From Mariprofundus sp. EBB-1 (GTDB taxonomy: Bacteria > Pseudomonadota > Zetaproteobacteria > Mariprofundales > Mariprofundaceae), in contig NZ_RCFQ01000002.1 of the NCBI RefSeq assembly GCF_003665155.1, positions 1-64,000 of the forward strand: a DNA stretch of 64,000 bases. The letters run 5' to 3'. Positions 300 to 61,005 of the stretch are shown here, in pieces; the stretch's first letter is position 1; each line of letters starts with the position of its first letter. Both the position numbers and the translations under genes were made by a program. Under the pieces are notes generated by a model. The model was not told the origin of the DNA and ran no database searches. It saw nothing but the letters and a program-made list of their open reading frames with translations.

Positions 300-814
300 A
301 GATTAGTGTGTTTAGCTATTAGTCTGCGACAACACCATTAAGACAGACTTCAGTCTTAGAAACACGTTCAGTTTTTAAGACGGCGCGAATCATGTCATTA
401 TCAGAGAAGCTGTCAATAGAGTATGTAGTCGCCGGAGTAGGGTAATGACATATTAAATATCCTCTGTTTTATACATGTATTCAGCATTTTTTACCGCAGA
501 GTACGCAAAGTTGCGCAGAGAAAGTCAAAAGTATTGTATTACAGGGCTCAATATGAATGTAGTGGAGCAAAAAGAACAATCATTGAACCATGATAAATCA
601 CCATACCAATGAGAGAGCAGCAAAATCATTGTTTATTGTTTGTTTCTACTTTGCGTCACTCTGCGTCCTCGGCGGTGAATGTTTTTTAAGGTTTTAATGC
701 GATTGCCCTAGTAGTTGGAGTTCTCCTGCTGTTTCCCATTCAGATAGTCTATCTTGCAATCCGGCATAAACAGGCAAGGATATGAACTTATATTTGGTAG
801 GGGAAAGAGAGATC
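300..814. other. Intergenic stretch before ubiH
   Basis: There is no intact gene here. It contains a possible decayed minus-strand small reading frame (319-451) and inverted-repeat element A (493-676, listed separately). The remainder, including the probable promoter region of the following flavin hydroxylase genes, shows no clear motif to me. Confidence 0.6.
493..676. repeat. Inverted-repeat element, copy A
   Basis: Two roughly 40-base ends in inverted orientation (493-530 and 640-676) enclose about 110 bases of unrelated sequence. Each end begins ACCGC and continues as closely spaced CGCARAG-like units, then AAGTCAAA or a variant. The left end matches the right end of copy B in 31 of its first 33 bases once reversed, so copy B lies in the opposite orientation. 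The outward flanks are also similar (CATTTT or CATTC before ACCGC). No open frame is credible inside. Confidence 0.85.
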
Positions 815-2080
815 ATGGGGCTTGCAAAACATATAGATTTTGACGTTGTCATCGTTGGTGGCGGTGCCATTGGTGCTGTGCTGGCGCTGGAACTGGATCG
901 ATTGAATTATAGTGTGGCTATCGTTGAACTGCGCGAACCTCTTTTTTCATCGACCAACCCTGAGCGCGTGGTGGCATTGAATGATGGTTCACGTTGTTAT
1001 CTGGAAGCTTTGGGTTTGTGGAAAGAGATTGAAGCGTTTGGTTTGGGTGATATCCGTCATATTGTTGTCACTGAACCGGGCAATCGTGGACGTTTTGATT
1101 TGCATGCAGATGATCTACAGAGCGCTGATAATGAACATGCCTTGGGTCATGTTGTGGAGATGGGGCATCTGCTTGAACCGATGTATCGGGCTTTGCAGGA
1201 CTCATCGGTTGAACTGATTGCACCGGCTTGCATTGAAGCCTTTGAAGTACAACAGGATCAGGTCTCGATTCAAATACGCCGTGACGATGAACTATCCACA
1301 ATTACAGCAGCTTTGCTGGTCGGTGCTGATGGTACTTATAGCCAGATACGTGCTATGGCGGGCATTGGTGTGTTTGGTTGGGATTATAATCGTTTTGGAC
1401 TGGTGGCATCGGTGACTACAGAGCTTGGCCATCAGGAGACAGCACATGAGTGTTTCAGGTCATCGGGGCCGCTGGCTTTTTTGCCGTTGGCTGATGGTCG
1501 TTTCTCTATTGTCTGGGCTGCCACACCGGCTGAAGCAACACAGCTGTTGGCGATGGATGATGAGTCCTTTATCTATGCCCTGCAAAAAGCCGCCGGGGCA
1601 TCTACGATGTCGAAACTCGGTGCGGTTACCGGGATATCAAAACGCGCCAGCTTCCCGCTTGAATTGACTATCGCCAAATCATTCGCCCAGTCTCGACTGG
1701 CCTTGCTTGGAAATGCTGCCCATACCATCCATCCGGTAGCAGGGCAGGGTATGAATCTGGGCTTTCGTGATGTAGAGACGTTGATTGAAGTGCTTGCTCG
1801 CGCCAAAGCACAGCAAGGGGATGCATCCGTTGATCCAGGCCAATCGATTCTGATGCAGGCCTATGCAGAGAAGCGACGTGGTGATGTGATGGCTGTGGCG
1901 GGATTTACCGAGTCGATGTCACATATCTTTGGCAGTAGTGTGCCCGGCATGAAATGGTTGCGCGGCATGGGGTTGGATAATCTTTCCAGCGTGCCAGCTC
2001 TGGCTGATCTGTTGTTGCAACAGGCTTCGGGTCTTGCCCAATTTAAACAGTTTAAACGCCCGGAGGTTCCTCATGCGTGA
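815..2080 (+). CDS. UbiH/COQ6-family FAD-dependent hydroxylase
   Basis: Flavoprotein monooxygenase of the UbiH/UbiF/VisC/COQ6 family, which hydroxylates the aromatic ring of ubiquinone precursors. A dinucleotide-binding motif (VIVGGGAIGA) stands near residue 12. The conserved second FAD motif near residue 300 reads GNAAHTIHPVAGQGMNLG, where the Asn in place of the usual Asp also occurs in UbiH. I chose ATG 815 because GGGGAAAGAGAG precedes it at good spacing; an ATG at 782 would add 11 residues but sits too close to its own purine tract. The 3' end overlaps the next hydroxylase gene by 8 bases, so the two are translationally coupled. Which ring position each enzyme modifies cannot be told from sequence alone. 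Confidence 0.88.
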   Translation: MGLAKHIDFDVVIVGGGAIGAVLALELDRLNYSVAIVELREPLFSSTNPERVVALNDGSRCYLEALGLWKEIEAFGLGDIRHIVVTEPGNRGRFDLHADDLQSADNEHALGHVVEMGHLLEPMYRALQDSSVELIAPACIEAFEVQQDQVSIQIRRDDELSTITAALLVGADGTYSQIRAMAGIGVFGWDYNRFGLVASVTTELGHQETAHECFRSSGPLAFLPLADGRFSIVWAATPAEATQLLAMDDESFIYALQKAAGASTMSKLGAVTGISKRASFPLELTIAKSFAQSRLALLGNAAHTIHPVAGQGMNLGFRDVETLIEVLARAKAQQGDASVDPGQSILMQAYAEKRRGDVMAVAGFTESMSHIFGSSVPGMKWLRGMGLDNLSSVPALADLLLQQASGLAQFKQFKRPEVPHA

Positions 2081-3305
2081 TCATGCTGATGTAGTGATTG
2101 TTGGTGGTGGCATGGTCGGTTTGGCGCTGGCTTGTGCTTTAAGGCATACCGGTTTGCGTATTGTGATTGTCGAGCGTGGTGAGCCGCCAGTGCGTCTCTC
2201 CCTCGGTAGAGATTGCCGTGTGTCAGCCATTGTGATGGGCAATGTACGCATTCTTGAAGGTTTGGGTGTGTGGAAGCATCTCAAAGATGATGCAGGGCCT
2301 ATGCGCAGCATGAAGATTTGGGATAATCAGGAGCAGGGTGGTATCCGCTTTGATGCATCCGAGATTGAAGAAGATGCACTAGGTTATCTGATTGAGAACT
2401 CCTGCACGCAGCGGGCTATGCATAAAACATTGCTGGATAGTGATGATGTGGAATTCTATTCGCCGGCTGAAATCACAGCCATCGATTGGCAGCCGGGTGA
2501 TTGGTCGCAAGAAGATTGTTCGAAGAATCCGGCCAGGGTAAGGCTTGCTGATGGGCGGGTGATTACAACACCATTGATTGTAGGGGCTGATGGCGGTCGC
2601 TCATGGGTACGTGAGCAGGCTAATATCGGTGTCTGGCAGCGTGATTATGCGCAGAAAGGTGTGGTGGTGAACGTGCGTGCTGAACATCCGCACCGTGGTA
2701 TCGCTTTTCAACGTTTTTTGCCAACCGGCCCATTAGCCGTATTACCGTTGAGTGATAATGTATGCTCCATTGTCTGGAGTGCAGAAAATGCCGAGGCGGA
2801 TCGTCTGTTGGCGATGTCCGATGAAGAGTTCCTGGATGCATTGAATCTCACCTTTGGTCCTGTGCTTGGTCGTATTACAGAAGCCGGTGATCGGGCTGCT
2901 TTCCCGTTAAAAGGGCAGTTGGCCAAACATATGGTGCGTGAACGCGTGGCACTGGTTGGCGATGCTGCGCATTGTATCCATCCTCTGGCTGGTCTGGGCG
3001 TGAATTTAGGCTTGCGCGATGCCATGGTGTTGGCGCAGGAAATCGCTGATGCCAAACGCTTTGAAGAAGATTGGGGCGAGTTGGCGGTTTTAGATCGTTA
3101 TATGAAACAGCGTATGCCTGATGTGTTATCGGTCATGGGTTCTATGGAAGGACTGCATCGGGTGTTCACGACAAACATTCCGGGCCTGAAAGAAGCGCGT
3201 GGGTTGGGCATGCGTATGGTTGGTAATGCCGGAGCGATTAAACATCTACTCATGCGTAATTCGACAGGCTTGTCTTTACCCGTTCCAAAACAAATTCGCA
3301 CGTAA
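2073..3305 (+). CDS. Second UbiH/UbiF-family FAD-dependent hydroxylase
   Basis: A paralogue of the preceding gene, about 410 residues. It has an N-terminal FAD motif (VIVGGGMVGLAL), a DGGRS-type motif near residue 180, and GDAAHCIHPLAGLGVNLG near residue 300. The Asp form of this motif is more like UbiF/UbiI than UbiH, suggesting the pair covers different hydroxylations in ubiquinone synthesis. ATG 2073 is preceded by GGAGG with ideal spacing and lies inside the last codons of the upstream gene. Ubiquinone synthesis is inferred from family; other aromatic hydroxylations cannot be excluded. Confidence 0.86.
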   Translation: MRDHADVVIVGGGMVGLALACALRHTGLRIVIVERGEPPVRLSLGRDCRVSAIVMGNVRILEGLGVWKHLKDDAGPMRSMKIWDNQEQGGIRFDASEIEEDALGYLIENSCTQRAMHKTLLDSDDVEFYSPAEITAIDWQPGDWSQEDCSKNPARVRLADGRVITTPLIVGADGGRSWVREQANIGVWQRDYAQKGVVVNVRAEHPHRGIAFQRFLPTGPLAVLPLSDNVCSIVWSAENAEADRLLAMSDEEFLDALNLTFGPVLGRITEAGDRAAFPLKGQLAKHMVRERVALVGDAAHCIHPLAGLGVNLGLRDAMVLAQEIADAKRFEEDWGELAVLDRYMKQRMPDVLSVMGSMEGLHRVFTTNIPGLKEARGLGMRMVGNAGAIKHLLMRNSTGLSLPVPKQIRT

Positions 3306-3330
3306 CTATTCTTATTAATAAAAACATTTT

Positions 3331-3499
3331 ACCGCTGAGGACGCAGAGTTACGCAGGGTAAAAGCGAAGCAGGGAGAGAGATTAAGTGCTCAATCAGTAT
3401 TACCCATATCCACAAATGCTGCGCCCGATAGCTGTCTACATGACCTGCCAGTTTAATCTGCATCTGACTTCCTCTGCGCAACCTTGCGTACTCTGCGGT
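3331..3499. repeat. Inverted-repeat element, copy B
   Basis: This is the same family as copy A but in reverse orientation. The left end (3331-3365) matches the reversed right end of A, and the right end (3465-3499) matches the left end of A almost exactly. It fills most of the gap between the second hydroxylase and the TSUP gene, ending about 20 bases before the latter's start codon. The interior of about 100 bases has no gene. Confidence 0.85.
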
Positions 3500-3520
3500 A
3501 GATGCCTTTGAATTTACAAT

Positions 3521-4270
3521 ATGGATGATTTGCAAAACTGGCAATATATTGCTGCTGCACTGATTTTTGTCTGGACCGGTTTTGTGCGTTCAGGTTTGGG
3601 TTTTGGTGGAGCAGCTCTTGGTTTGCCGCTGTTGCTGCTGGTGGTTGATGATGCACTGGTCTGGCTGCCGTTGATTGGTATTCACCTGCTCTTCTTTTCA
3701 TCGATCACTGTCAGTTCCCGCATGCAGCATATTGATTGGGCCTACCTCAAAAAAGCACTCGCTATCATGATCATTCCCATGCTGGTTGGGGTGTTCGGGC
3801 TGCTAACGCTGCCTTCTGAGTGGGTGGTGGTGTTTGTCTATCTCACCACGCTGTTTTATGCCTGCTGTTATCTGTTTAAGTTTCAGATCCGCAGTAATAA
3901 TCGTTGGGCTGATCATGTGCTGCTGATGAGTGGCGCCTATGCTGCCGGTGTGTCGCTCATTGGCGCGCCGCTGATTGTGGCGGTGTTCACCCATCACGTG
4001 GTCAAAGAGATGTTGCGCAACACCTTGTTTGTGCTGTGGTTTATACTGGTGGTGATCAAACTTTCCGTATTGTGGTCGGTGGATGTGAATTTCTGGTGGT
4101 GGCATCACCTGTGGTTGTTACCATGCGCCGCTATTGGCCATGTAGTTGGTTTGAAGTTGCATGATCACCTGATGGCAGGTGACGCGACCAGGTTTAAACA
4201 GGTGATAGGCGCTGTGCTGGTACTGATATGTATGGTTGGTCTGTCGGCTCAGTTTGAAAATGTGCTTTAA
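3521..4270 (+). CDS. TSUP (TauE/SafE) family membrane transporter
   Basis: A 249-residue, strongly hydrophobic protein with about seven to eight membrane segments. It has the TSUP signature near the first segment (GFVRSGLGFGGAALGLPLL), a repeat of the same type around residue 145 (YAAGVSLIGAPL), and the usual length of the family. Members move sulfite, sulfonates or other small anions across the inner membrane; the substrate here is unknown. No strong ribosome-binding site precedes ATG 3521, and the gene starts just after an inverted-repeat element, so its promoter may lie in or before that element. Confidence 0.82.
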   Translation: MDDLQNWQYIAAALIFVWTGFVRSGLGFGGAALGLPLLLLVVDDALVWLPLIGIHLLFFSSITVSSRMQHIDWAYLKKALAIMIIPMLVGVFGLLTLPSEWVVVFVYLTTLFYACCYLFKFQIRSNNRWADHVLLMSGAYAAGVSLIGAPLIVAVFTHHVVKEMLRNTLFVLWFILVVIKLSVLWSVDVNFWWWHHLWLLPCAAIGHVVGLKLHDHLMAGDATRFKQVIGAVLVLICMVGLSAQFENVL

Positions 4271-4291
4271 GTGACAGTAAAGAGGTGTTGA

Positions 4292-4567
4292 GTGAGTTTA
4301 GGAAATATTGATGGCTGGCAATTGATGGGCACGGTGGCGGCGCTGTCATTTACGGTAGGTTTTGTGGATCAGCTTCGTATTACCTATAAAACTAAGAATG
4401 TGGATGGCTTGTCATTCTTGCAATGGGCCGTGTTTGCCTCTGCATCGAGTATGTTTACAGCCTATTATGTGCATCTGGATCAGTGGATGATGGTGGCCGT
4501 GTCTGTTTTTGGTACGTGCTGCTGTCTAGCTATTCTGGCCATGATGATGCGTTTTAGGAGCACATAA
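4292..4567 (+). CDS. SemiSWEET/PQ-loop family small membrane protein
   Basis: A 91-residue protein with three predicted membrane helices. The motif VDQLRITYKTKNVDGLSFLQW is spread over residues 25-45 and corresponds to the PQ-loop of SemiSWEET sugar transporters, with DQ instead of PQ. SemiSWEETs act as dimers of three-helix bundles, so a single short gene is expected. The start is GTG 4292 after AGAGGTG. The next gene begins in this gene's stop codon (TAATG), so the two are co-translated. The substrate is not predictable. Confidence 0.75.
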   Translation: MSLGNIDGWQLMGTVAALSFTVGFVDQLRITYKTKNVDGLSFLQWAVFASASSMFTAYYVHLDQWMMVAVSVFGTCCCLAILAMMMRFRST

Positions 4568-4845
4568 TGCGCAGTGCGATGGCCAAACATATTCTGGTCA
4601 AAACCAGGCAGGAAGCTGAAGAACTGAAACAGCGCCTAGCCAAGGGTGAAGACTTTGCCAAGCTGGCAAAAAAATACTCTCTATGCCCCTCAAAAAAGCG
4701 CGAAGGTGATTTGGGTGAGATCTATCCGGGGCAATTGGTGAAGTCTGTTGAACAGGTCATCTTCAATAAACCGCTTTCGAAAGTGCACGGCCCGGTGAAA
4801 AGTAAATTCGGCTTTCATCTGATTGTGGTCTATTTTAGAAATTAA
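4567..4845 (+). CDS. ppiC: Parvulin-type peptidyl-prolyl cis-trans isomerase
   Basis: A 92-residue single-domain parvulin, close to the length of E. coli PpiC, with no signal peptide, so cytoplasmic. Family landmarks are AKHILVKTRQEAEEL at the N-terminus, DFAKLAKKYSLCPS in the middle with the conserved Cys-Pro-Ser, DLGEIYPGQLV, and the C-terminal strand KSKFGFHLIVV carrying the conserved FG.H. It catalyses proline isomerisation during protein folding. The start ATG 4567 overlaps the previous stop by one base and follows AGGAG by six bases. Confidence 0.9.
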   Translation: MRSAMAKHILVKTRQEAEELKQRLAKGEDFAKLAKKYSLCPSKKREGDLGEIYPGQLVKSVEQVIFNKPLSKVHGPVKSKFGFHLIVVYFRN

Positions 4846-4947
4846 GTACGAGCCTTTATATCGTTCAGAAAAGACTGCACGATCGGCAGCCTGCTAGCGG
4901 GGGAGGGAGACCTTTCTATTCTTTCCGTTGAAATAGGGCTAAATAAT

Positions 4948-4980
4948 CACTCCTTTGGGGTGGTGTTTTTTCTGTTTTTT
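4948..4980 (+). terminator. Probable terminator before mutL
   Basis: A short stem (CACTCC with GGGGTG, three-base loop, one G-T pair) is followed by a T-rich tract to 4980. It would end the TSUP-ppiC transcript. The stem is short, so strength is uncertain. Confidence 0.55.
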
Positions 4981-5036
4981 ACTCAGGTTTCAGGAGTGTT
5001 TGAAAAGAGAGGTTTGATATCAGTGATCAAGACACT

Positions 5037-6887
5037 ATGAGTAATTCCGTGGTTCATATTCTGTCGCCTCAGGTGGCCAATCAGATTGCTGCCGGTGAGG
5101 TGGTTGAGCGGCCTGCATCGGCGGTCAAAGAGCTGATGGAAAATGCACTTGATGCTGGCGCCACCAAGGTGGTTGTGCGCATTACTGGGGCCGGAAAAAA
5201 ATCGATAGTGATTGAAGATAATGGTTGTGGCATGTCGGCGCACGATGCTGAACTCTCCTTGCAGCGCCATGCCACCAGTAAAATTGCGTCTTCAGATGAT
5301 CTGCATCGCATCGCCAGTCATGGTTTTCGTGGTGAGGCGCTGCCATCCATCGCTTCCGTTTCACGCTTTCGCATGCAGACCGCTTTAGCTGGTAGCAGCG
5401 AGGGCATTGAAGTGCGTGTGGATGGAGGAGCTGAGACCGAAACGCGTCCTGCCCCACCGCGCCATGGCACCCGTATTGAGGTGCTGGATCTGTTTTTGAA
5501 TACTCCGGCACGTCTGAATTTTATGCGTACAGATAAAACCGAAGAAGCCGCGATTGCCGAATCCTTTCGCGCTTTGGCGTTGGCCAACCCTGGTGTAGCA
5601 ATGCAGTTGGAGATTGAAGGGCGTAGTCGTTTTAATTTTACCAGTCAGGATGAGCGATCCCGTATCATAGCAATTCTGGGTGATGCATTTGCTGAGAATA
5701 GTATGGAGCTAAGCATTGAGCATGAAGGTATGCTGGTTTCTGGCCATTTGGGATTGCCTACATTCCATCATCGTGATTCCACCAAAATGATGTTTCTGGT
5801 CAATGGCAGGGTTATCCGTGATAAACAGTTGATTGCAGCTATGCGAGCGGGCTATCGCGATGTGATGTTTCATGATCGATACCCTGTAGGGCTTATTCGC
5901 ATTGAAATAGATCCGGCCGATGTGGATGTGAATGTTCATCCGGCCAAACGTGAAGTACGTTTCAAATCACCACAGACGGTGCGTGCAGGCGTTGTATCCT
6001 GTATCCGTGCAGCCATTGAACGCATGGGGCAATCGGTAGCATCTACAACGACTGATCAGGCCATGCATGCCATGCAGCAATCGGGCTCTTCAGACTATCA
6101 GCGCCAGGCGGGTACTTCTTCTGGCGCATTTGCTAATGCTTCCATGCCGAATTTCTCATCCGGTGATTTCAGGGTTCCTGTGCGCCAGCCGGCCTCTTCT
6201 GCTGCAGGTATGCCAGTAGATCTCCAGCGTATTCTGTTTGCCAGCGGTTCAGCGCATGAACCGGAAGGCTGTTATCAGGTAGATGGGGGGCTGGATTTAG
6301 GACATGCCCTGGCTCAAATTCATCGCTGTTATATTCTGGCCCAGACTTCATCCGGTGTTATTCTGGTCGATCAACATGCAGCCCATGAGCGCATGACCTA
6401 TGAAAAACTGAAAAAGCAGTTGGCGGGTGCGCGTATTGCTACGCAGATGTTGCTTGAGCCGGTAAGTCTTTCTTTGGCTGCTGAATCAGCAGCCTGGCTG
6501 CATGATCATGATGATGCCTTGGTGTCATTCGGTGTTGAGATTGATGTGACCGGCGAGGAGTCCTGTTGCATTCGTTCTGTGCCAGCCATGCTTTCGACAG
6601 AACCTGTGGCTGAGTTGGTGGCGGAATTGATTGAGGCCTGTCGTCTGCTTGGAGCAGAATCAGAAGCCGGATCCAGTGGACAGGCGCGCGTACTGGAGCG
6701 TTGGCTGGGCAATCGGGCTTGCAAAGGGTCGATCAAGTCAGGACGTTTATTGTCACATGAAGAGCAGGAAGCGTTGTTAAGAAAGATGGAGCAGACGCCG
6801 AATATCGCACAGTGCAACCATGGTCGTCCGACTTATGTGTCACTATCGCTGAATGATCTTGATCGTCTGTTCGGGCGAAAAGAGTGA
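5037..6887 (+). CDS. mutL: DNA mismatch repair protein MutL
   Basis: A 616-residue MutL. The GHKL ATPase domain has ELMENALDA at 32-40, EDNGCGM near 60-66 and GFRGEAL near 98-104. A variable linker spans about 330-400, and the C-terminal dimerisation domain follows. The latter contains DQHAAHERMTYE at about 444-455, which fits the endonuclease signature DQHA(X)2E(X)4E, plus the accompanying ACKGS and CNHGRPT motifs. This MutL is therefore expected to nick DNA itself, unlike the E. coli protein, which relies on MutH. The following antiporter, miaA and hflX genes lie in the same orientation; mutL-miaA-hflX is a common order in Proteobacteria. Confidence 0.97.
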   Translation: MSNSVVHILSPQVANQIAAGEVVERPASAVKELMENALDAGATKVVVRITGAGKKSIVIEDNGCGMSAHDAELSLQRHATSKIASSDDLHRIASHGFRGEALPSIASVSRFRMQTALAGSSEGIEVRVDGGAETETRPAPPRHGTRIEVLDLFLNTPARLNFMRTDKTEEAAIAESFRALALANPGVAMQLEIEGRSRFNFTSQDERSRIIAILGDAFAENSMELSIEHEGMLVSGHLGLPTFHHRDSTKMMFLVNGRVIRDKQLIAAMRAGYRDVMFHDRYPVGLIRIEIDPADVDVNVHPAKREVRFKSPQTVRAGVVSCIRAAIERMGQSVASTTTDQAMHAMQQSGSSDYQRQAGTSSGAFANASMPNFSSGDFRVPVRQPASSAAGMPVDLQRILFASGSAHEPEGCYQVDGGLDLGHALAQIHRCYILAQTSSGVILVDQHAAHERMTYEKLKKQLAGARIATQMLLEPVSLSLAAESAAWLHDHDDALVSFGVEIDVTGEESCCIRSVPAMLSTEPVAELVAELIEACRLLGAESEAGSSGQARVLERWLGNRACKGSIKSGRLLSHEEQEALLRKMEQTPNIAQCNHGRPTYVSLSLNDLDRLFGRKE

Positions 6888-6934
6888 GAGGTTTGTTGGG
6901 TACAGAATACCGATTGTTAAGGATGGAGCACTAG

Positions 6935-8110
6935 ATGCATCTTGATCCGGTGATTCTGGTTATCACCATTGTACTGTTTTTCTCCATGTTGATGGCTTAT
7001 GTCGCCATGCGTGTGAAGTTACCTATTGTGGTAGCCTATATTCTTACCGGCGTGTTGCTCGGCCCATCCGGTTTTGCAGTGATTGAAGATCATGGTCTGG
7101 TGACCCGTATTGGTGAGATCGGTGTGATCATGCTGCTCTTTTTTGTTGGTCTGGAAGTGTCGATTCCGCGTTTGTTAGAAGGTTGGAAAATAGCATTTAT
7201 CGGTACCAATATTCAGATACTTGTGAGTGTAATCGCCTGCGTGGCATTGGCGATGCTGTTTGATATGAGTTGGCAGCAGGGGGTGTTGTACGGCTTTATT
7301 ATCAGTCTTTCCAGTACCGCCGTGGTGCTGAAAATATTGCAGGATTCCGGCGAAATCGAATTGCCGTTGGGGCAGAATGCACTTGGCGTGCTGCTGGTGC
7401 AGGACCTGGCAATTATTCCGATGATGGTGATTCTAGGCATGCTGGGAGGCGGTGAAGAGAGCACTGTCTCATCACTGGTGGTTCAGGTTGCCGGTGGTGT
7501 AACAGTGATTGGTTTTGTAATCTGGTTAATGCGTACAGGGCGTTTTCATATTCCCGATGCACTGCTTGGCAGTGATGAGCACCGCATGATGCTTGGTCTG
7601 TTGCTCTGTCTGGGTTCGGCCACATTGACTGGCTGGTTGGGGCTATCTCCTGCACTAGGAGCATTTCTCGCGGGTGTACTGCTCGCTTCATCGGATCAGT
7701 CTGAATGGGTGCATGATCATCTGGGACCGGTGCATATTATTTTCATGGCGATGTTCTTCCTCTCCATCGGTATGCTGGTAGATCTCGATTATTTGATTGC
7801 TCATGTTTGGGTTGTCGTTGTCGCCACGCTGTTGGTATTTCTATTTAATGCAGGCACTAATGTGTTCGTCATGCGTGCACTCGGTGAAGATTGGGAGTCG
7901 TCATTATTGACGGCTGGCCTGCTCAGTCAGATTGGAGAATTTTCATTCCTGCTGGCTGCGATTGGTTTGCATGTCGCGCTGATTGATGAGCCTCTGCATA
8001 GTTTGACGGTTCTGGTCATTGCACTGACCCTGATGCTCAGCCCAATATGGTTGATGTTGATCAAACGTTTCGCCCGTATGCGCGGTGTTGTGAGGGAGAG
8101 GGAGTCATGA
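6935..8110 (+). CDS. CPA2-type cation:proton antiporter, membrane domain only
   Basis: A 391-residue polytopic protein with about 11-12 membrane helices. It resembles the sodium/hydrogen exchanger domain of KefB/KefC/YbaL (LPIVVAYILTGVLLGPSG, LFFVGLEVS, GFIISLSSTAVVLKIL, LSPALGAFLAGVLLA). It stops after the membrane domain and lacks the nucleotide-binding TrkA-N/RCK domain of Kef channels, so gating by NAD or glutathione adducts is not expected. It probably exchanges K+ or Na+ for H+. It is inserted between mutL and miaA, and its stop overlaps the miaA start (ATGA). Confidence 0.85.
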   Translation: MHLDPVILVITIVLFFSMLMAYVAMRVKLPIVVAYILTGVLLGPSGFAVIEDHGLVTRIGEIGVIMLLFFVGLEVSIPRLLEGWKIAFIGTNIQILVSVIACVALAMLFDMSWQQGVLYGFIISLSSTAVVLKILQDSGEIELPLGQNALGVLLVQDLAIIPMMVILGMLGGGEESTVSSLVVQVAGGVTVIGFVIWLMRTGRFHIPDALLGSDEHRMMLGLLLCLGSATLTGWLGLSPALGAFLAGVLLASSDQSEWVHDHLGPVHIIFMAMFFLSIGMLVDLDYLIAHVWVVVVATLLVFLFNAGTNVFVMRALGEDWESSLLTAGLLSQIGEFSFLLAAIGLHVALIDEPLHSLTVLVIALTLMLSPIWLMLIKRFARMRGVVRERES

Positions 8111-30361: not shown

Positions 30362-30913
30362 ATGGCTTTGGTTGCGTCGATACATGTAAATGCTGGTTGG
30401 GCTTTGCCTGAAATGATGTTGAAAGATGTTGAAGGTAATGCCGTGGCATTGCGAGAACAGCTGGGTGAGAATGGTTTGTTGGTGGCATTTACCTGTAACC
30501 ATTGCCCGTATGCGATTGCTGTTTGGCCGCGGTTGATTCGTCATGCAGCGACATTGAAAGCTATGGGGATCAATACGATTGCCGTGAATCCGAATATTCA
30601 TCCCGGTTATCCAGCTGATGGAGTGATGGCCATGGCTGAAAAAATGAGCGAATGGGCTATCGAATTCCCTTATCTGGCTGATGATGGTCAGGATGTGGCG
30701 CGTGCTTTTGATGCGCAGTGCACACCTGATCTGTATATGTTTGATGGTGAGGGCAAGCTCTATTATCACGGTCGTATTGATGATTACTGGAAGGATGAGA
30801 CAAAAATTACTAATGAAGAGCTGATGCCTGCTGCTGAATTGCTGATTGCAGGGGAGCCTGCCCCACAACCACAACATCCAACGATTGGGTGCTCAATTAA
30901 ATGGTTAGGGTGA
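30362..30913 (+). CDS. Thioredoxin-family (AhpC/TSA-like) protein
   Basis: A thioredoxin-fold protein of about 183 residues. It has FTCNHCPYAIAVWPRL near residue 44, with the Cys-x-x-Cys in CNHC, then IAVNPNIHPGYPADG and CTPDLYMFDGEGKLYYHG, the usual order of the thioredoxin-like DUF/PRX-like1 group. It has no signal peptide, so a cytoplasmic thiol-disulfide role is likely. Two ATGs stand side by side; 30362 is five bases after AGGAG, 30359 only two. Confidence 0.82.
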   Translation: MALVASIHVNAGWALPEMMLKDVEGNAVALREQLGENGLLVAFTCNHCPYAIAVWPRLIRHAATLKAMGINTIAVNPNIHPGYPADGVMAMAEKMSEWAIEFPYLADDGQDVARAFDAQCTPDLYMFDGEGKLYYHGRIDDYWKDETKITNEELMPAAELLIAGEPAPQPQHPTIGCSIKWLG

Positions 30914-31465
30914 TCGCATTAAAATAGCATATATATTTTTAATATGTGGATGAAAATAGAATAGTCAAAAACTTTACCGCAATCCCCAGGGGAGTCTCTC
31001 TTGCGCAAGCGCGCAATTCACCTTCAGGTCGCAGAGTAAGTCCTTATATAACAATGAATAGGGGATTTACTTATCTGAGGTGATCATCACAGCGTTCAGG
31101 TGAATTGTGACCAAGTGAAATGGCTGTGGTGTATAGCAAGAGCGTATTCCTTAGGGGTATAATCACTTGAACTAAAAACCAGGTAAACCATTCGGTCGAT
31201 ACGGTGCACTCCGCCACGGTGTTATCGCTTTTGACAATGACTACAGCCATTTCCTGCAAGGGATGGCTTATTGCGAAGCACTACTGTAACGCTGATACTG
31301 ACAATGTGGTTGTGTGCCTTTGACTTACTCTGCGAAACTTTGCGTACTTTGCGGTTAGTGCTTCTGAATCAGGATGTGAGTATAGGGAGTGTTGATGCGA
31401 TTGTTCTGATAATAGTTCAGATGTTTATTGCTATTTTACAGGCAAGCCTTATGCTTCGCCACGTT
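30914..31465. other. Long intergenic stretch before rimP
   Basis: No convincing gene is visible. The stretch is mostly inverted-repeat element C (30976-31355). A 58-62 codon minus-strand frame (31071-31259) with GCAGGAA before its ATG exists inside the element but shows no recognisable family. An 11-base inverted repeat with one G-T pair (31119-31129 with 31241-31251) encloses it. A terminator follows at 31466. Confidence 0.5.
30976..31355. repeat. Inverted-repeat element, copy C
   Basis: The right end (reversed 31355 back to about 31318) matches the family consensus, ACCGCAAAG then ACGCAAAG then CGCAGAG and TAAGTCAAA. The left end begins ACCGCAA at 30976 but is split by about 45 bases starting TCCCCAGGGG and ending ATTCACCTTC, after which CGCAGAGTAAG resumes. 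A related insert interrupts copy D at the equivalent place. The interior is about 280 bases. Confidence 0.8.
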
Positions 31466-46317: not shown

Positions 46318-46967
<650 letters not shown>

Positions 46968-48424: not shown

Positions 48425-48501
48425 CTGTGGGATCATGTAAAGATGATGCTGATGTATTATATCCAGTAAGAAATATTCACCACATCCACGTGGCTCCAAG
48501 C

Positions 48502-51838: not shown

Positions 51839-51878
51839 TCATCGACTCAGCGCTTAGCAACAGTATTTAGATAAAAAA

Positions 51879-51912
51879 AAGGCTCACTTACGCAGGTAAG
51901 TGGGCCTTTGTT
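51879..51912 (+). terminator. Terminator after aspS
   Basis: An imperfect 12-pair stem (GGCTCACTTAC with GTAAGTGGGCC) has an A run before it and a short T stretch after. Confidence 0.75.
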
Positions 51913-52026
51913 CTGTTTGGCTGATGATTTCTAAATCATCAGATTGGTTATCTGTTGCTAGTGGGCTTGGATAGCGATTATTTTGATCGCGTTGACATCA
52001 ACTAAAAATGATACGATCATACCTCC

Positions 52027-52308: not shown

Positions 52309-52362
52309 CAGAAGTGAAGGCTTCAATCTTTTAACCTATTTATAGACATTCGAGGATTCATC

Positions 52363-54111: not shown

Positions 54112-54225
54112 GGCGGTTTTTATAAAAAGTCATTCATCTAACTTGGCATTGATGGAAGATTCGGAAAATATCAAGTCAAAGTGTTCACCTCTGCATTCTG
54201 AACGGATATAAAATAGGAGGCATCA

Positions 54226-54571
54226 ATGAAAAAATATCTGTTTATAATGATCTTGTTCGGGCTGACTCCTTTGGTCGCAAATGCTTCATGCAGCGAGGAT
54301 AGAATTACGACCAACGAGTTGGCATAGCCTGACCAAAGATCCTGATTGGGCCATTACAGATTATAATGAATATGGTGCGACTGTTGATAATTATGATGTC
54401 TATGAAAGCAGTAAAAAAGTGCGTTTCAAAAGAACCAATTGGGGGAATGATCGTTATAACGGGTTTATTCAATGTATGCCTGACCATCAAATCCACGTTA
54501 AGGTTTGCGGAGGTTACGGATCGGGGCGGCATGATCTGATGAATCAATTGCTTAAAGGTGCTTATCCGTAA
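54226..54571 (+). pseudogene. Small secreted protein gene broken by a frameshift
   Basis: ATG 54226 follows AGGAGG and encodes a clean signal peptide (KKYLFIMILFGLTPLVANA) but meets TAG at 54325-54327 after 33 codons. The +1 frame is open across this point and continues as 80 well-behaved residues (about SLTKDPDWAITDYNEYG to the stop at 54571) with two cysteines. One base gained or lost between about 54290 and 54327 would join them into one exported protein of about 114 residues. I do not recognise the family. Sequencing error cannot be excluded. Confidence 0.55.
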
Positions 54572-54773
54572 TCGTCGGTAGAAGATGCGATAGAGAAGTT
54601 TTGTGATGCATGTTGGTGCATCTCTCCCTTTATTTATTGAAAAACTACCTCTCTGAATTTCGATTTATTGCTGCTGCATCGTCGTTGTTAAACCTTGCAT
54701 TCGTGGCAATGGTGTAATCATCAATGATATCCACGGTGTACTGAAATAGTACATCTGGAAAGCAGATGTCGGC

Positions 54774-55964
54774 TTATTGATTCAGTGCAATATCTACAAT
54801 CGGTGCAAGGTAAGGTTTCACCATTGGATTATCTTGCGGATCGACGTGTTGTAACAGTTTCACGGGAATACGCAGCTTAGTGCCTGCTTTCGGCCGCATG
54901 TGGATGCCGGGATTGGCTGACATAATCTTTAAGGGAGAGGTGCGGAAACGTTTACCGATGCGACCAATGCTTTCACCTTTGGCGACTTTAATCGTCATAT
55001 AATCAACCGGTTTGGAAGGAATATGCTGTTGCAGTTTTTTTACACGAACCTGAGATATACGCAGCTGAATGCTCTTCGATTTAGCATTGAAATATTGATT
55101 CAGTTTGAGTTTCGGGTTGAGTCGAAAAATTTGATTTTTCGGTAGTTCCGTTGCCTTCTGCAGTTGGGCGATATCGACAGGTATATGCAGTGTCATGGTT
55201 TGGGTCGCAAAGGGTTCTGGAAAAGTGATTTTACCCTGCTCATGTAGTGCAATCAGCCCAATGATATGACGAATGTATGTTTTGGTGATTGGAGGCAGTG
55301 GCATCGCTTTTAGGCCGTCCTCCGGCTGCCATGGCCTGCGATCAAGGCGACGTTGAACGGCGTTGGGGCCGAGATGATAGGCTGCAAAAGCCATTGGCCA
55401 GTTGCCGAAACGTTGATGTTGTAGCGTTAAATATTTGGCTGCAGCTTTTGTACTACTGCGAATGTCACGACGGCCATCGAAATTAGCATCACTTTTAACA
55501 TGCATGTCATCAGCTGTTTCGGGCATCAATTGCCAAAGTCCTGTAGCGCCTACCGAGGATACAACATAAGGATCATAGCTGGATTCTACGACGGGAACCA
55601 TTTGCAATTCTGAGGGAGCACCAGAAGCCTCTAAGGTCTCAAGTAGTGGTTGGCGCACATAACGCGAACGGCTGGCAACTCCGCTCCAGAAGGTTCCATA
55701 AATCGACCATGCCTCTCGTTTAAGATGTCTAATCTCTTTGTCGGTGAGTCCGGTTAGGAAGGGGTTTGATGACTGTGCTTTATCTGTCTCAGCGTTGTTC
55801 ATTGCAGCTTGTGTGCGTTCAAGGTCTTTATCGCCGCCCCATAAATTAGACAGGGAAGGCCAGAATGGATTCATGCCCAGAGTCTGCGGTTGTGTGCAGG
55901 AGGTAATGAAAGCCAGAGATAGCAGAATAAGTATGGATCGTGAAAGTAATTTAGGTATAGACAT
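54774..55964 (-). CDS. MltD-like membrane-bound lytic transglycosylase
   Basis: A 396-residue lipoprotein. The signal ends in the lipobox ITSC at about residue 23. The SLT catalytic domain at about 110-235 has the glutamate in PVVESSYDPYVVSSVGATGLWQLMP and the following AFAAYHLGPNAV. The C-terminal region from about 320 holds a degenerate LysM-like motif (MTIKVAKGESIGRIGKRF). It cleaves peptidoglycan glycan strands at the outer membrane. Only one LysM-like repeat is visible, where E. coli MltD has more. Confidence 0.85.
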   Translation of the reverse strand: MSIPKLLSRSILILLSLAFITSCTQPQTLGMNPFWPSLSNLWGGDKDLERTQAAMNNAETDKAQSSNPFLTGLTDKEIRHLKREAWSIYGTFWSGVASRSRYVRQPLLETLEASGAPSELQMVPVVESSYDPYVVSSVGATGLWQLMPETADDMHVKSDANFDGRRDIRSSTKAAAKYLTLQHQRFGNWPMAFAAYHLGPNAVQRRLDRRPWQPEDGLKAMPLPPITKTYIRHIIGLIALHEQGKITFPEPFATQTMTLHIPVDIAQLQKATELPKNQIFRLNPKLKLNQYFNAKSKSIQLRISQVRVKKLQQHIPSKPVDYMTIKVAKGESIGRIGKRFRTSPLKIMSANPGIHMRPKAGTKLRIPVKLLQHVDPQDNPMVKPYLAPIVDIALNQ

Positions 55965-56060
55965 GGCGCAAGCTTAGTGGCCCTATCATTTGGAAAAGTT
56001 GATCTATGTCACAAAAATTAGGGCGCTTTATTCAACCTTGTGCGGCAATCATTAGCTAAT

Positions 56061-56095
56061 AAAAAGGCCGGGATTCAATACTGAAAACCGGCCTT
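56061..56095 (-). terminator. Terminator of the outer-membrane barrel gene
   Basis: An eight-pair GC stem (AAGGCCGG with CCGGCCTT, 16-base loop) is followed on the minus strand by T5. It lies between the barrel gene and the MltD-like gene. Confidence 0.75.
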
Positions 56096-56140
56096 GGTTG
56101 GAATGGAGTATGATCTGTTTATGAGGTCACACTGTAGTGT

Positions 56141-56896
56141 TTAAAAGCGAAAAAAGACGCCGGCATGTGGCCCTTTGAACGTGGCGTCAGCCAGAATGCC
56201 ACTGGCATCAACTTTTATTTTCAGAAAACGATAACCGCCATAGATACCCAGCGTTGGAATAGGAGAGAATTCAATCTGTGCATCATAATCGGTAAAACTA
56301 TTGCCGGAATAACCCAAATAGCCAATACGGCCTGTTAGTCCAATAAAGTCAGCCAACGCAACACGCCCACGCAAACCAATCGTTGGGATGGGAACGGTGG
56401 CGCTTTTATTGGATGTGATGCCGCCACTGGTGATGTTGGTTTTAATATTTACCGTTTTGACCGATGTTTCAAACGCAATCTGCAGGCGTGATGGCAGATC
56501 ATCCATGTTTAAAAGGTAATAACCGTAAGAAAAATCAAGAATGTCGGCCTTGAGCTCACTCTGGATAGCACTATTTATTGCGTAGGTAGTACCGTTGTAG
56601 GTGATGGGACGAGGCAATGAGCTTGAACCACTGAAATTGAGCGGGATGAAGCCAAAAGAGAATATGTTGTCGCCAAGATTGAGAGTGATCTCTCCGGTTG
56701 GCTGGACGCTGTTACCTAAATTTATATCATTTTTTGTATCAATCTTGGTACCGATATTGTTGATCGTAGCGCCAAACGTACCTGACGGTGATAACAGCAT
56801 ATAACCAACTTTGATGGCAACGGTTTCATCAGCAAAAGCCGGGTTCGTAAAGGCTAATAGGGCAGTGAATATAGATGCAGATATTCTTGATTTCAT
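56141..56896 (-). CDS. Outer-membrane beta-barrel protein
   Basis: 251 residues. The signal peptide (1-22, ending AFA) is followed by about eight predicted beta strands and a terminal Phe (HAGVFFRF), the outer-membrane assembly signal. The pattern (VGYMLLSPSGTFG, LGIYGGYRFLKIKVDASG, FKGPHAGVFFRF) resembles OmpW-like and TIGR04219-type barrels. The start ATG 56896 has GGAG at fair spacing. It is divergent from hyuA across a region with a CRP-like site. Ligand unknown. Confidence 0.75.
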   Translation of the reverse strand: MKSRISASIFTALLAFTNPAFADETVAIKVGYMLLSPSGTFGATINNIGTKIDTKNDINLGNSVQPTGEITLNLGDNIFSFGFIPLNFSGSSSLPRPITYNGTTYAINSAIQSELKADILDFSYGYYLLNMDDLPSRLQIAFETSVKTVNIKTNITSGGITSNKSATVPIPTIGLRGRVALADFIGLTGRIGYLGYSGNSFTDYDAQIEFSPIPTLGIYGGYRFLKIKVDASGILADATFKGPHAGVFFRF

Positions 56897-56956
56897 TGGC
56901 GACTCCAAATCATTTTTTTGTGGCGGGGCACTGTATCGCAGATGATAGCAAAAACC

Positions 56957-56970
56957 GTGAGCTGTATCAC
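56957..56970. promoter_or_regulatory. CRP/FNR-type palindrome
   Basis: A GTGA-N6-TCAC palindrome sits in the divergent gap between the outer-membrane barrel gene and hyuA. The half-sites are exactly those of CRP-family regulators. It is 61 bases from the barrel start and 67 from hyuA's start, so it could control either. Confidence 0.5.
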
Positions 56971-57036
56971 AGTTTGTTTCCGATTCTGCAATAATTGAGG
57001 TTAGTAGAGACCACTTACAGAGGCTACAATGCTGCC

Positions 57037-59034
57037 ATGTTTTTAGGTGTGGATACAGGTGGGACGTTTACTGACTTTGTCTGTTTTGATGCAGATGGCA
57101 TGCGCTTTCATAAAGTGCTTTCAACACCTGATGACCCTTCTCTGGCTATTGAGCAGGGTATTGAGGAGCTTGGCCTTGATGCATCGATGTTACATGTGGT
57201 GCATGGTTCCACGGTTGCCACCAATGCGATCTTGCAACGTAAAGGCGTGCATACGCTGTTTGTAACGCATCAGGGGCTAGAAGATCTACTTACGATTGGT
57301 CGGCAAACACGCCCTGAACTGTATCAACTCTGCCCCGATGCAATTGCGCCGGTTGTTGGCAGGCAAGATTGCATCGGTATTTCAGGACGCATCAATGCGT
57401 CAGGTGATGAGCAATCAGTATTGGATGCCGGTGATCTCAAACGCGTGATTGAACGTGTTGCAGCTGGCGGTTATGAGGCTGTGGCAGTCTGCCTGTTGTT
57501 CTCGTTTCTCAATCCGGCTCATGAACGTGCCATAGCGAAGGCATTGCATGATACCTATTCAGATGATCTGTTTGTGTCGCTCTCGCATCAGGTGCTTGCT
57601 GAATATCGTGAATATGAACGCTCAGCAACTACCTTCCTCAATGCTTATGTCGGGCCGTTGGTGCAACGTTATTTGCAACGTCTGGAGTTAAGTTTGGGCG
57701 CGAAACATCTCTATGTGATGCACTCTGCCGGTGGGGTGATGCAGGCTGAACTGGCCGGGCAGCAGGCGGTACGCTTGGTATTGTCCGGTCCGGCTGGTGG
57801 TTTGGTGGCAGCACAGGCGATCGGTGCGCAGCTGTCTGAAAAACACATACTAACCTTTGATATGGGGGGCACGAGTACCGATGTTGCGCTGATTCAGGGG
57901 CGGGCCTCTAAAACCACCGAGGGTGAAATTGCCGGAATGCCGGTATCACTGCCAATGCTGGATATTCATACCATTGGTGCCGGTGGTGGTTCTGTTGCCT
58001 GGTTGGATGAGGCTGGCTTACCGCAAGTCGGGCCTGAATCGGCAGGCGCAAGACCGGGACCGGTCTGTTATGGGCTGGGTGGTGAAAAACCGACTGTAAC
58101 CGATGCCAATCTGTTGTTGGGGCGGATGCCAGCCAATGCGTGTTTGGCCGGTTCTATGTCGCTGGATATGGAAGCTGCACGCAGCGCCTTCTCTCAATAT
58201 GGTGAGACGTTGGGTTTAAGTGCGGAAGCCGCAGCAAGGGCTGTCATTGATATTGCCGAAGAGCATATGGCTGGAGCGCTGCGGGTAGTCTCTGTACAGC
58301 GCGGATATGATCCTGCCGATTTCTCGTTACTCTGTTTTGGTGGTGCGGGAGGCTTACATGCCTGCGCACTGGCAGAAAAACTATCGATGTCGAAAGTAAT
58401 CATACCCGTGGCAAGTGGTGCCTTTTCAGCGCTCGGTATGTTGCTTGGTAAACAGCAGAGTGAATTTTCCCGCAGCAGACGTTTTGCTTTGCAGGATAAC
58501 GATACGGCAGCTGAGATGCAGCAGCTATTTATGCAGATGCAGGATGAAGCCGTAGCGCAGATGCAGGGTTTAGCACTTACATTCGAACGCCATGTGGATA
58601 TGCGTTATATCGGTCAGGGGTTTCATCTGACCATGGCCTGCCCTGATGATGATCTGGAACAATTGAAACAGCGGTTTGAACAAGCGCATATGCAAGCTTA
58701 CGGACATCAGCTGAATCGGGATGTAGAGATTATGACCGTGCGTTTGAGTGCTTTTGTAGAGCGTCCGCTGCCGGTGTTGCCGGAGTTATGCACAAGCACT
58801 GAAGTAGCTCATCCTGTTGCTCATTCAGAAATCTATGGCGTAGGGCGCGTGCCTCATTTTATGCGTGCAGATTTAAAGCCGGGCTTGAGCTATGAAGGGC
58901 CAATGCTGGTATTGGAAGATATTGCCACACTGTGGTTAGCCCGAGGCTGGCAGATGCAGGTCTCTACACATGGGCATCTGTTGCTGGAAAAGATCGATGC
59001 TAATCAGCTTGTACTGGAGGCGGTAGATGTCTAA
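57037..59034 (+). CDS. hyuA: Hydantoinase/oxoprolinase subunit A
   Basis: A subunit of about 665 residues with the HyuA/oxoprolinase N-terminal block GVDTGGTFTDFVCF at 4-17, HGSTVATNAILQRKG near 65-79, the ATPase-like SGPAGGLVAAQ near 250, and TFDMGGTSTDVALIQ near 272. It hydrolyses 5-membered cyclic amides using ATP together with subunit B. ATG 57037 is chosen because the conserved motif follows at once, although AGAGG is 13 bases off. The end overlaps hyuB by eight bases. The natural substrate (hydantoin or 5-oxoproline) is undetermined. Confidence 0.9.
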   Translation: MFLGVDTGGTFTDFVCFDADGMRFHKVLSTPDDPSLAIEQGIEELGLDASMLHVVHGSTVATNAILQRKGVHTLFVTHQGLEDLLTIGRQTRPELYQLCPDAIAPVVGRQDCIGISGRINASGDEQSVLDAGDLKRVIERVAAGGYEAVAVCLLFSFLNPAHERAIAKALHDTYSDDLFVSLSHQVLAEYREYERSATTFLNAYVGPLVQRYLQRLELSLGAKHLYVMHSAGGVMQAELAGQQAVRLVLSGPAGGLVAAQAIGAQLSEKHILTFDMGGTSTDVALIQGRASKTTEGEIAGMPVSLPMLDIHTIGAGGGSVAWLDEAGLPQVGPESAGARPGPVCYGLGGEKPTVTDANLLLGRMPANACLAGSMSLDMEAARSAFSQYGETLGLSAEAAARAVIDIAEEHMAGALRVVSVQRGYDPADFSLLCFGGAGGLHACALAEKLSMSKVIIPVASGAFSALGMLLGKQQSEFSRSRRFALQDNDTAAEMQQLFMQMQDEAVAQMQGLALTFERHVDMRYIGQGFHLTMACPDDDLEQLKQRFEQAHMQAYGHQLNRDVEIMTVRLSAFVERPLPVLPELCTSTEVAHPVAHSEIYGVGRVPHFMRADLKPGLSYEGPMLVLEDIATLWLARGWQMQVSTHGHLLLEKIDANQLVLEAVDV

Positions 59035-60622
59035 TGATGCAGTGAGTATTAGTCTGTTTGCACATCGATTGTCGGCGCTGTGCGAAGAGATGGGGGCGGT
59101 GCTGAAACGCAGTGCAATCTCGCCCAATATTCGTGATCGCGAAGATTTTTCCTGTGCGTTGTTTGATCGATCCGGTCAGCTCATCGCGCAGGCTGCGCAT
59201 ATTCCGGTGCATTTGGGGTCGATGGCATTTGCCATGGCTGATGTAGTGGGGGCTTTTGATTGGCAGCCTGGTGATGTGGTGGTGTTTAATGATCCCGCTT
59301 TAGGTGGCACGCATCTGCCGGATATCACGGTAGTGAGCCCGGTGTTTTTGGATACTGTTGTTGGTACTGAACTGTTTGCTTTTTCTGCTACGCGCGCACA
59401 TCACGCCGATATTGGTGGTAAATCACCCGGTTCGATGGGGGTGGAGACCTCTTTAGAGGATGAGGGGTTGATTATCTCGCCCTGTTATTGGTTTGAAGCT
59501 GGTCATGAACAAGCGGCGTTGGCAGTTCGGTTTCGTGAACGTGTGAGAGCACCGGAAGAGCGGCTTGGCGATCTGTCGGCGCAGAAAGCTGCTTGTATGG
59601 TTGGTGCCCGGCGTTTGGCTGAGTTACCAGTGGCTGGTCTGGATGAAAAAATCACCGCATTGATGGCTGTGTCTGAGGCCTATGGGCGCAATGCAATCGA
59701 TGCTATTCCTGATGGAAGGTTTACATTTGAAGATGCACTCGAAGATGATGGTTGCGGTTCAGGGCCGCTGCCTATTCGGGTTGAAATAACCATTGCTGGC
59801 GATACGGCTACGGTTGATTTTAGCGGTAGTGCAGCGGTCACCCCTGGCCCGGTGAATTGCCCGATGGCGGTTACTGCGGCCAGTGTGTTGTATGTGTTCC
59901 GCTGTTTGATGCCTGCCCATACGCCGCAAACATCAGCTGTATTTCATCCGATCAACATTGTTGTACCCGAGGGCTGCTTGCTGCATGCAACAGATGGTGC
60001 TGCGGTAGCGGCTGGCAATGTGGAAACCAGTCAGCGCATTGTAGATGTGGTGCTGGGGGCGTTGGCTCAAGCGATTCCTGAACGTATTCCTGCGGCTGCC
60101 CAGGGCACGATGAACAATGTGATCTTTGGTGGTGATCGCTCTGGTTCTGATCAGTCCGGTGATGACCAGCATGACGGTGAGCCATGGCTTTATTATGAAA
60201 CATTGGCTGGTGGTATGGGAGCGCATGCTGGTGGAAATGGTCTGTCAGCGGTGCAATGTCACATGACCAACACCAAAAATTCTTCGATTGAAGTGTTGGA
60301 GATGCATTATCCATTACAGATACGCGAATATGCCGTGCGTTCCGGTTCAGGTGGAGATGGCCTGTTTGTTGGCGGAGATGGTATGGTTCGTGAATGGGTT
60401 GTGAGCGCTGATTGTTCCGTATCACTATTGACCGAACGGCGCACAAGCATGCCATACGGTTTGCAAGGTGGTGATGCAGGTGCTTCAGGTCGTAATTGTT
60501 TGTGCAGGGAAGGTGTGTGGCAGGAACTGGCTGCCAAAGGCTCATGGCAACTGCAAGCAGGTGATGTTATCCGCATTGAGACACCCGGTGGTGGTGGTTT
60601 TGGCATTGCTGAGGAGAAATAG
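59027..60622 (+). CDS. hyuB: Hydantoinase/oxoprolinase subunit B
   Basis: A 531-residue partner of HyuA. Family blocks are GAVLKRSAISPNIRDREDFSCALFD near 25-50, AAHIPVHLGSMA near 58-69, PGDVVVFNDPALGGTHLPDITV near 83-104, ATRAHHADIGGKSPGSM near 125-141, and the glycine-rich ending ETPGGGGFG. GGAGG precedes the start. It occurs as a two-gene operon with hyuA, and no racemase or transporter is attached. Confidence 0.91.
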   Translation: MSNDAVSISLFAHRLSALCEEMGAVLKRSAISPNIRDREDFSCALFDRSGQLIAQAAHIPVHLGSMAFAMADVVGAFDWQPGDVVVFNDPALGGTHLPDITVVSPVFLDTVVGTELFAFSATRAHHADIGGKSPGSMGVETSLEDEGLIISPCYWFEAGHEQAALAVRFRERVRAPEERLGDLSAQKAACMVGARRLAELPVAGLDEKITALMAVSEAYGRNAIDAIPDGRFTFEDALEDDGCGSGPLPIRVEITIAGDTATVDFSGSAAVTPGPVNCPMAVTAASVLYVFRCLMPAHTPQTSAVFHPINIVVPEGCLLHATDGAAVAAGNVETSQRIVDVVLGALAQAIPERIPAAAQGTMNNVIFGGDRSGSDQSGDDQHDGEPWLYYETLAGGMGAHAGGNGLSAVQCHMTNTKNSSIEVLEMHYPLQIREYAVRSGSGGDGLFVGGDGMVREWVVSADCSVSLLTERRTSMPYGLQGGDAGASGRNCLCREGVWQELAAKGSWQLQAGDVIRIETPGGGGFGIAEEK

Positions 60623-61005
60623 AAAAAGAAGTTCAAAAGCATTTACCGCAAAGTTACCCCAGGGCACCTTCTCTCTCGCAAACTCGATTCACCTTGCCGC
60701 AAAGTTTCGCAGAGTAAAGCCTTGAAATGAAAGTAATGTAAAATACTGTTTGTATAACTGATAGTCTGTCTGGTCATTCTCCGAATGACCTATCCGAATA
60801 AGTTTGCTGTTTTGACATTTTTTTTACTGCTCTACTCCCTCTATGGCGGTTAGTGTTGTTTTTCGTAATACTTTTGGCAAAAATAGAGATAGTAAATTGA
60901 GCAGTTGAAGGCTTTTATAGTTGTGCTGAATAGCTATATTTTGTCTTACTTTGCGAAACTTTGCGTCCTCTGCGGTGAAAAGGTTTTTGATCTTTAAGGT
61001 GAAAT
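60623..61005. other. Intergenic stretch before tsaD
   Basis: It is mostly inverted-repeat element D (60645-60976). Its interior contains one perfect hairpin (60772-60790: GGTCATTC, TCC loop, GAATGACC) without a T run and no credible gene. The tsaD promoter is not obvious. Confidence 0.6.
60645..60976. repeat. Inverted-repeat element, copy D
   Basis: The right end (reversed from 60976) reads ACCGCAGAG, ACGCAAAG, CGCAAAG, TAAGACAAA, matching the family. The left end starts ACCGCAAAGTT at 60645 and is interrupted by about 41 bases starting ACCCCAGGG and ending TTCACCTTG, after which CCGCAAAGTT is repeated exactly and the end continues. The duplicated 10 bases look like a target-site duplication. 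The insert resembles the one in copy C. Confidence 0.82.

Follow-up and report, generated by a model that had tools for sequence, protein, structure and literature searches.

We examined a 64,000-nt stretch of the Mariprofundus sp. EBB-1 genome (contig NZ_RCFQ01000002.1, positions 1 to 64,000; hereafter, the window) that carries four intergenic elements with inverted ends, designated A to D. These elements very probably belong to a family linked to genes for the GxxExxY protein. We read them as gene-less, non-autonomous members of a small insertion-element family that was probably spread in trans by GxxExxY; whether GxxExxY is itself the mobilising enzyme is, in our estimate, an even question. 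The family is widespread, and its gene-bearing members, with one gene for a small predicted nuclease between ends of the same kind, hint at an unusual route by which short DNA spreads through the genomes of bacteria and archaea; among the papers listed from the open PMC library, none, judged by title and beginning of abstract, described these ends or linked GxxExxY to inverted repeats. A preliminary description of the window had offered two readings, non-autonomous mobile elements or transcribed hairpins. The former is well supported by the many copies, the empty sites, the dispersed copies of the same sequence and a gene-bearing class that shares the ends; the link of the ends to GxxExxY is not seen in that description.

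Element A (493..676) has inverted ends at 493-520 (+) and 649-676 (-), and element B (3331..3499; 169 nt) has inverted ends at 3331-3358 (+) and 3472-3499 (-). Both end pairs were located as previously described, and the reported equality of 31 of the first 33 bases between A and B matched the best A/B pair of ends when counted by hand. In elements C (30976..31355) and D (60645..60976), the right ends were intact (31328-31355 (-) and 60949-60976 (-), respectively), but each left end was split by an insert of ~42 nt, termed X. The left end of C, ACCGCA, is broken by X, and that of D reads ACCGCAAAGTT, followed by X and then by the array at 60698-60727; therefore, only the right ends of C and D represent full copies. 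The preliminary description had B reversed relative to A; given symmetrical ends and unrelated interiors, such an orientation is hardly meaningful. The interiors were unrelated among the four, as had been claimed; however, the interior of A recurred at four other genome sites with 82-86% identity (L056:4049, L074:4080, L036:8066 and L078:3838), indicating that interiors are not all unrelated, and additional partial matches turned up. All four elements lie between open reading frames (ORFs) or adjoin a tRNA, and no ORF of at least 90 amino acids overlaps any of them, in agreement with the earlier view of intergenic elements without clear coding capacity. Four conceptual translations, three from the interior of C and one from D, had no match in Pfam. 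An Rfam scan of the window at the gathering score returned a single tRNA (216-299), with no rRNA and no match to A-D. A known Rfam RNA was rejected on this result, and so was the identity of A-D as intervening sequences (IVSs) of 23S rRNA, given a window without rRNA and elements located between ORFs or beside a tRNA.

The ends proved to be neither confined to these four sites nor always single, the two outcomes on which the earlier element interpretation was to fail. The end motif matched at 66 positions of the 2.88-Mb genome with at most three mismatches, and a reversed control pattern matched at none. A profile search of the 417,857 bases around the motif matches resolved 35 inverted pairs of 82-345 bp, along with 21 strong ends that had no partner. 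The ACC faced outwards in all 11 neighbouring pattern pairs less than 700 bp apart. The conserved core within this genome consists of ACC and three CGC-NRAG units at 9-10 bp spacing, flanked on the outer side by an A/T-rich arm of ~12 nt with the weak consensus TTAAAATTTTTC (36 ends from 18 elements). Across the family, the ACC is likewise preceded by an outer A/T-rich arm of ~12 nt and is followed by three CRC-RRAG units spaced 8-10 bp, or roughly one unit per helical turn. Eight of the 35 elements overlapped some ORF of at least 70 amino acids in mechanical ORF calls. The short non-coding copies carry terminal inverted repeats (TIRs), as do miniature inverted-repeat transposable elements (MITEs).

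The flanks of GxxExxY genes were tested because such genes may often lie beside repeats of this kind. Four PF13366 (GxxExxY) matches were found in the Mariprofundus sp. EBB-1 genome. One of these genes lies between trpD and trpC (gene names read from ORFs) inside CGCAGAG ends, the far end being broken by X; the other three lie inside inverted arrays of the CACGAAG, CACGAAT and CGCAGAT types. Proteins from gene-bearing copies scored 141-151 bits against TIGR04256, with a curated cut-off of 35, in three of three cases; A-D themselves encode none. We then sampled the best 80 of 560 GxxExxY loci in GTDB, a choice that biases the sample towards relatives of the query; by record title, these 80 included Planctomycetes, Verrucomicrobia, Acidobacteria, Proteobacteria, Chloroflexaceae, Prevotella, Methanothrix and others. 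Of 76 GxxExxY genes, 64 were spanned by an inverted repeat with a score of at least 14, as were 4 of 383 control windows from the same loci. When ends of different loci were cross-paired, 78 of 400 pairs reached this score. The high rate reflects the mutual resemblance of ends from different loci; as a null, the same-locus windows are fairer. Independently, a motif scan (ACC-CRCNRAG x3) found both ends at 57 of 77 loci, one end at 16 and none at 4, compared with 7 of 273 single control windows; short flanks excluded 4 of the 80 loci from the inverted-repeat test and 3 from the motif scan. The gene-bearing members at the 57 loci with both ends contain this one gene and measured 421-748 bp (median 450).

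Gene and ends also co-occurred within the genus. Among the 15 genomes (of 23) common to both searches, GxxExxY was present in all 12 genomes with the ends and in none of the 3 without them (Fisher 1/455, calculated by hand and with kinship ignored). Eight more distant genomes all lacked these ends, and one of them has GxxExxY. Gene-bearing copies with the same ends as gene-less ones were present both in the Mariprofundus sp. EBB-1 genome and in a Rhodocyclaceae genome (G047, reached via L143). In the latter, the exact pattern revealed 13 inverted pairs: a single gene-bearing one of 421 bp and twelve gene-less ones of 68-86 bp. These pairs have AAAACC-type outer arms in common, and the gene-bearing and gene-less pairs match in both arms and arrays. 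Two of the gene-less copies lie 3.3 kb from each other in opposite orientation and agree in both interior and outer arms.

Elements were present at some orthologous sites and absent from others, again as in MITEs. At site B, a short empty gap was found in three of 13 relatives (G009, G011 and G014) and an element with the same ends and an unrelated interior in G006; three relatives had other sequence and six had another gene order. Element A was present in none of the six relatives compared. We compared 13 further elements (13 of 14 query elements, chosen by the matches obtained) in 24 element-genome comparisons: the element was missing in 8, the same element occupied 5 sites in G006, and the occupant had changed elsewhere. 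The L072/G001 pair was excluded from the comparison of interiors, and L059 was too short for scoring. One interior (L044:3989-4148) was inverted in G012 (L331), with a score of 41 inverted, 10 direct and a shuffled maximum of 15, indicating that the arms may recombine or that the element was re-inserted the opposite way. At the L067 site, G001 had a CAGAT-type element instead. One and the same tight gap between two genes was occupied, depending on the species, by an element or a remnant of one array type or another (the L067 site in G001, G014 and G009; site D in G006); such gaps thus look like repeated targets. At L059:5659-5744, G006 lacked one unit of the right array and all that was left in G007 was the outer arms with GCGGT attached, which resembles an excision scar.

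Protein type was coupled to end type. Across 69 sampled loci, protein distance correlated with end distance (r 0.36; partial r 0.40 with same host group and GC difference accounted for; p 0.0005, the lowest value that 2000 permutations allow). Eight of the 77 loci had been excluded for lack of an end scoring 16, and host groups were assigned from record titles. When the nearest protein from another host group was considered, its ends were closer than average at 55 of the 69 loci. Genomes of the genus hold several GxxExxY paralogues with differing end types, and protein identity between different genomes was 0.63 for proteins of one end class but 0.41 for those of different classes (24 proteins, p 0.0002). 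For 17 of these 24 proteins, which were taken from 32 matches with end classes assigned by eye, the nearest foreign relative fell in the same end class.

GxxExxY is a protein of ~120 residues, and its family is named in a passage of PMC8934634. In a 42-protein alignment, H18, G24, E27, Y30, D67, E77, K79, Q91, Y95, G104 and N108 were constant. The structure was predicted confidently, with a pLDDT (predicted local distance difference test) of 96.4, and the top Foldseek matches were lambda exonuclease and SSO0001 (E 0.0011, none reaching 0.001 or below). VIA-align gave a Z of 9.6 to SSO0001 (100 residues, root-mean-square deviation 4.5), which we take to be a Cas4; Holliday-junction resolvases and restriction enzymes reached Z values of ~6-8, a range that possibly reflects only a common arrangement. 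A sequence search of solved structures returned nothing useful for GxxExxY (best E 0.4). The combination D...ExK and QxxxY is the motif of PD-(D/E)XK nucleases of the Cas4/lambda-exonuclease type. The invariant D67, E77, K79, Q91 and Y95 supply this combination on a matching fold, and GxxExxY is accordingly predicted from the model to be a Cas4/lambda-exonuclease-like PD-(D/E)XK nuclease.

We propose that GxxExxY would bind arrays whose units match its own end type and would cut or process the element ends. Copying into intergenic gaps might then follow, either of the element itself or, in trans, of whatever sequence lies between two ends of this kind, and the interiors, being unselected, would drift, be replaced or be inverted between the arms. 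If the nuclease moves the elements, they would constitute a minimal mobile element that manages without a known transposase. Because protein type is coupled to end type, this reading can be tested directly on short DNA with the purified protein. It also gives a setting to GxxExxY, a family named just for its motif, and to the CGCAGAG and CACGAAG repeats found between the genes of environmental bacteria.

Several observations weigh against spread by GxxExxY. Three of the four GxxExxY genes in this genome lie within end types other than that of A-D, and for 7 of the 24 genus proteins the closest relative from a different genome belongs to another end class. The joint absence of gene and ends from three genomes could result from shared ancestry. 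Many ends are degenerate or, as for the 21 strong ones, unpaired, and the exact-pattern ends of some other genomes are mostly unpaired as well (32 ends and one neighbouring pair in G050), so that the clean picture in G047 is not general. Flanking words shared by the two sides, as expected from target-site duplication, showed no significant excess (p 0.14, n=16; p 0.21, n=18), with borders that are not fixed to the base. Apart from the nuclease fold, which says nothing on transposition, no domain is visible in GxxExxY. Finally, a putative terminal repeat of the ISAs1 family of insertion sequences (ISs) lies near 10 of the 35 elements, A and C among them, and some copies, A included, may therefore have moved with that system.

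The presence of this terminal repeat raises the possibility that the elements are MITEs of an ISAs1-family IS and that the CGCAGAG arms are merely inner sequence. An insertion at the position of A in G006 ends in the same terminal bases, consistent with this origin. However, 25 of the 35 elements, including B and D, had no such repeat within the distances scanned, and elsewhere the arrays directly flank GxxExxY genes; we rejected it as the whole explanation, for which it is highly improbable, although it may hold for the A subfamily. A more serious rival, albeit an unlikely one, is that GxxExxY is a passenger and that movement of the ends is due to a Y1/HUH transposase of the kind known from repetitive extragenic palindromic (REP) elements and TIRtrons, or to host recombination. 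GxxExxY is not known to have any transposition chemistry, and the genome contains four Y1_Tnp matches; passages of PMC3733652 describe tyrosine transposases flanked by TIRs. Yet arrays flanked none of the four Y1 loci, and membership in the REP/RAYT system, in which the repeats flank the Y1 transposase gene, was rejected on the same count. Moreover, the ends vary with the encoded family (PF05635 or GxxExxY) and with the GxxExxY subtype, a pattern that is not expected if one host enzyme served them all.

A further explanation is that the pairs are kept as RNA hairpins, i.e., as processing sites, mRNA stabilisers or terminators, and that DNA mobility is old or incidental. A-D folded better as RNA than their shuffles (z -3.26, -2.74, -3.64 and -6.19, respectively), and one G047 copy did likewise, so that in this sense the hairpin reading of the preliminary description is possible; RNase III is described in passages of PMC4990558 as cutting 23S rRNA IVS elements with inverted ends. 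However, such folding would arise from any inverted pair, and the remaining results do not favour the hairpin as the reason for the ends. End similarity was 0.779 within elements and 0.782 between elements (p = 0.59; 16 elements); belonging to the same element thus did not make two ends more alike. Arm changes relative to G006, assessed by eye, were one-sided at L067 and L068 and unmatched at L063; at L051 both arms were affected and the pair was mismatched before and after. The ends lack the covariation expected of a selected stem, and a protein-binding site fits them better than a stem maintained through its pairing. Gene orientation at 33 of the 35 elements (24 same-strand, 6 convergent and 3 divergent) resembled the background (271, 68 and 49 of 388) in mechanical ORF calls. 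Convergent gaps were not in excess (6/33 and 68/388), and the intrinsic terminator was rejected. Overall, we regard retention as RNA hairpins as improbable, if less so than an ISAs1 origin of all elements, and we retain dispersal in trans by GxxExxY as the preferred reading.

A-D resemble bacterial MITEs in being short and gene-less, with TIRs, many intergenic copies, empty sites and a gene-bearing class with the same ends. They differ in that no significant target duplication was found, the partner gene encodes a predicted PD-(D/E)XK nuclease instead of a DDE or HUH transposase, and the ends are arrays of units 8-10 bp apart. The gene-bearing members encode the family catalogued as TIGR04256 and PF13366 (PDDEXK_3). 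According to passages of PMC3733652, REP/REPIN-RAYT and TIRtron-TIRYT systems are similar in that the spread of their small repeats is attributed to an enzyme whose gene lies between repeats of like kind; their palindromes, as given there, carry a GTAG or CGTC tag, whereas the present elements have other ends and the Y1 genes lack arrays. The 23S rRNA IVS with S23p/IVP, as far as passages of PMC4990558 describe it, is likewise a small element with 28-bp inverted ends and one small ORF beside short tandem repeats, and heptamer repeats precede the S23p gene of the Coxiella IVS. In contrast, the present elements are intergenic, the ORF is GxxExxY and the IVP genes that we tested have arrays of 7-bp period.

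Genes of PF05635 (IVP/S23, four-helix bundle), included as a control family, were found inside inverted arrays at 22 of 29 loci, compared with 3 of 112 control windows, and 20 of the 22 arms had a 7-bp period. This set comprised 29 of 42 matches in 9 genomes reached via the GxxExxY loci (30 had loci; the weak L271 was excluded). The CRCNRAG motif was found on both sides of none of these 29 genes and on one side of a single gene. IVP/S23 genes between inverted arrays of 7-bp period (L256-L285; L080 in the Mariprofundus sp. EBB-1 genome) thus form a sister arrangement to that of GxxExxY. Cyanobacterial short tandemly repeated repetitive sequences are short intergenic tandem units, suspected to be mobile, with direct repeats of period 7. 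The TAACTGA heptamers of Beggiatoaceae, as portrayed in passages of PMC4679880, are also short intergenic tandem units suspected to be mobile; with period 7 and direct repeats, both differ from the arrays of the window and stand nearer to the IVP type.

We tentatively extend these observations to a class of mobile elements in bacteria and archaea, a proposal that we rate somewhat below even. Such elements would encode a single Cas4/lambda-exonuclease-like nuclease of ~120 residues and no transposase or recombinase; the subtype of the nuclease would read the unit type, gene-less hairpin pairs would be dispersed in trans without target duplication, and IVP/S23 genes with 7-bp arrays would form a sister class. 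IVP genes in 7-bp arrays bear on heptamer repeat arrays and on the origin of 23S rRNA IVSs, and the sister class, if true, would explain both.

The ISAs1-type terminal repeat outside A, TTAATGCGATTGCCCT (694..709, - strand), lies close to the element and perhaps marks a larger MITE carrying A; that outside C, AGGGTGATCGCATTAA (30907..30922, + strand), has a weaker partner at 31392-31407. The A subfamily may have been amplified inside an ISAs1-type MITE. At L075, we observed a possible CCTAAGACT duplication outside such a MITE.

Insert X is nested in the left ends of C (30984..31024, + strand) and D (60657..60695, + strand); at site D in G006, two X copies were found in the right end instead. 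X consists of CCCCAGGG..TCTCT, a variable palindrome and ATTCACCTT, and occupies the spacers of end arrays; copies were also observed at L041, L045, L047, L052, L062, L065, L069, L078 and other loci. Array units, some of other array types, flanked X on at least one side in 26 of 28 copies and on both sides in 21, and CCCAGGG mostly lay on the ACC-facing side (exceptions: L052, L057 and L069). X looks like a second mobile element targeting the first. Its inner stem showed compensating changes, with one pair read as T-A in 13 copies, C-G in 6 and G-C in 3.

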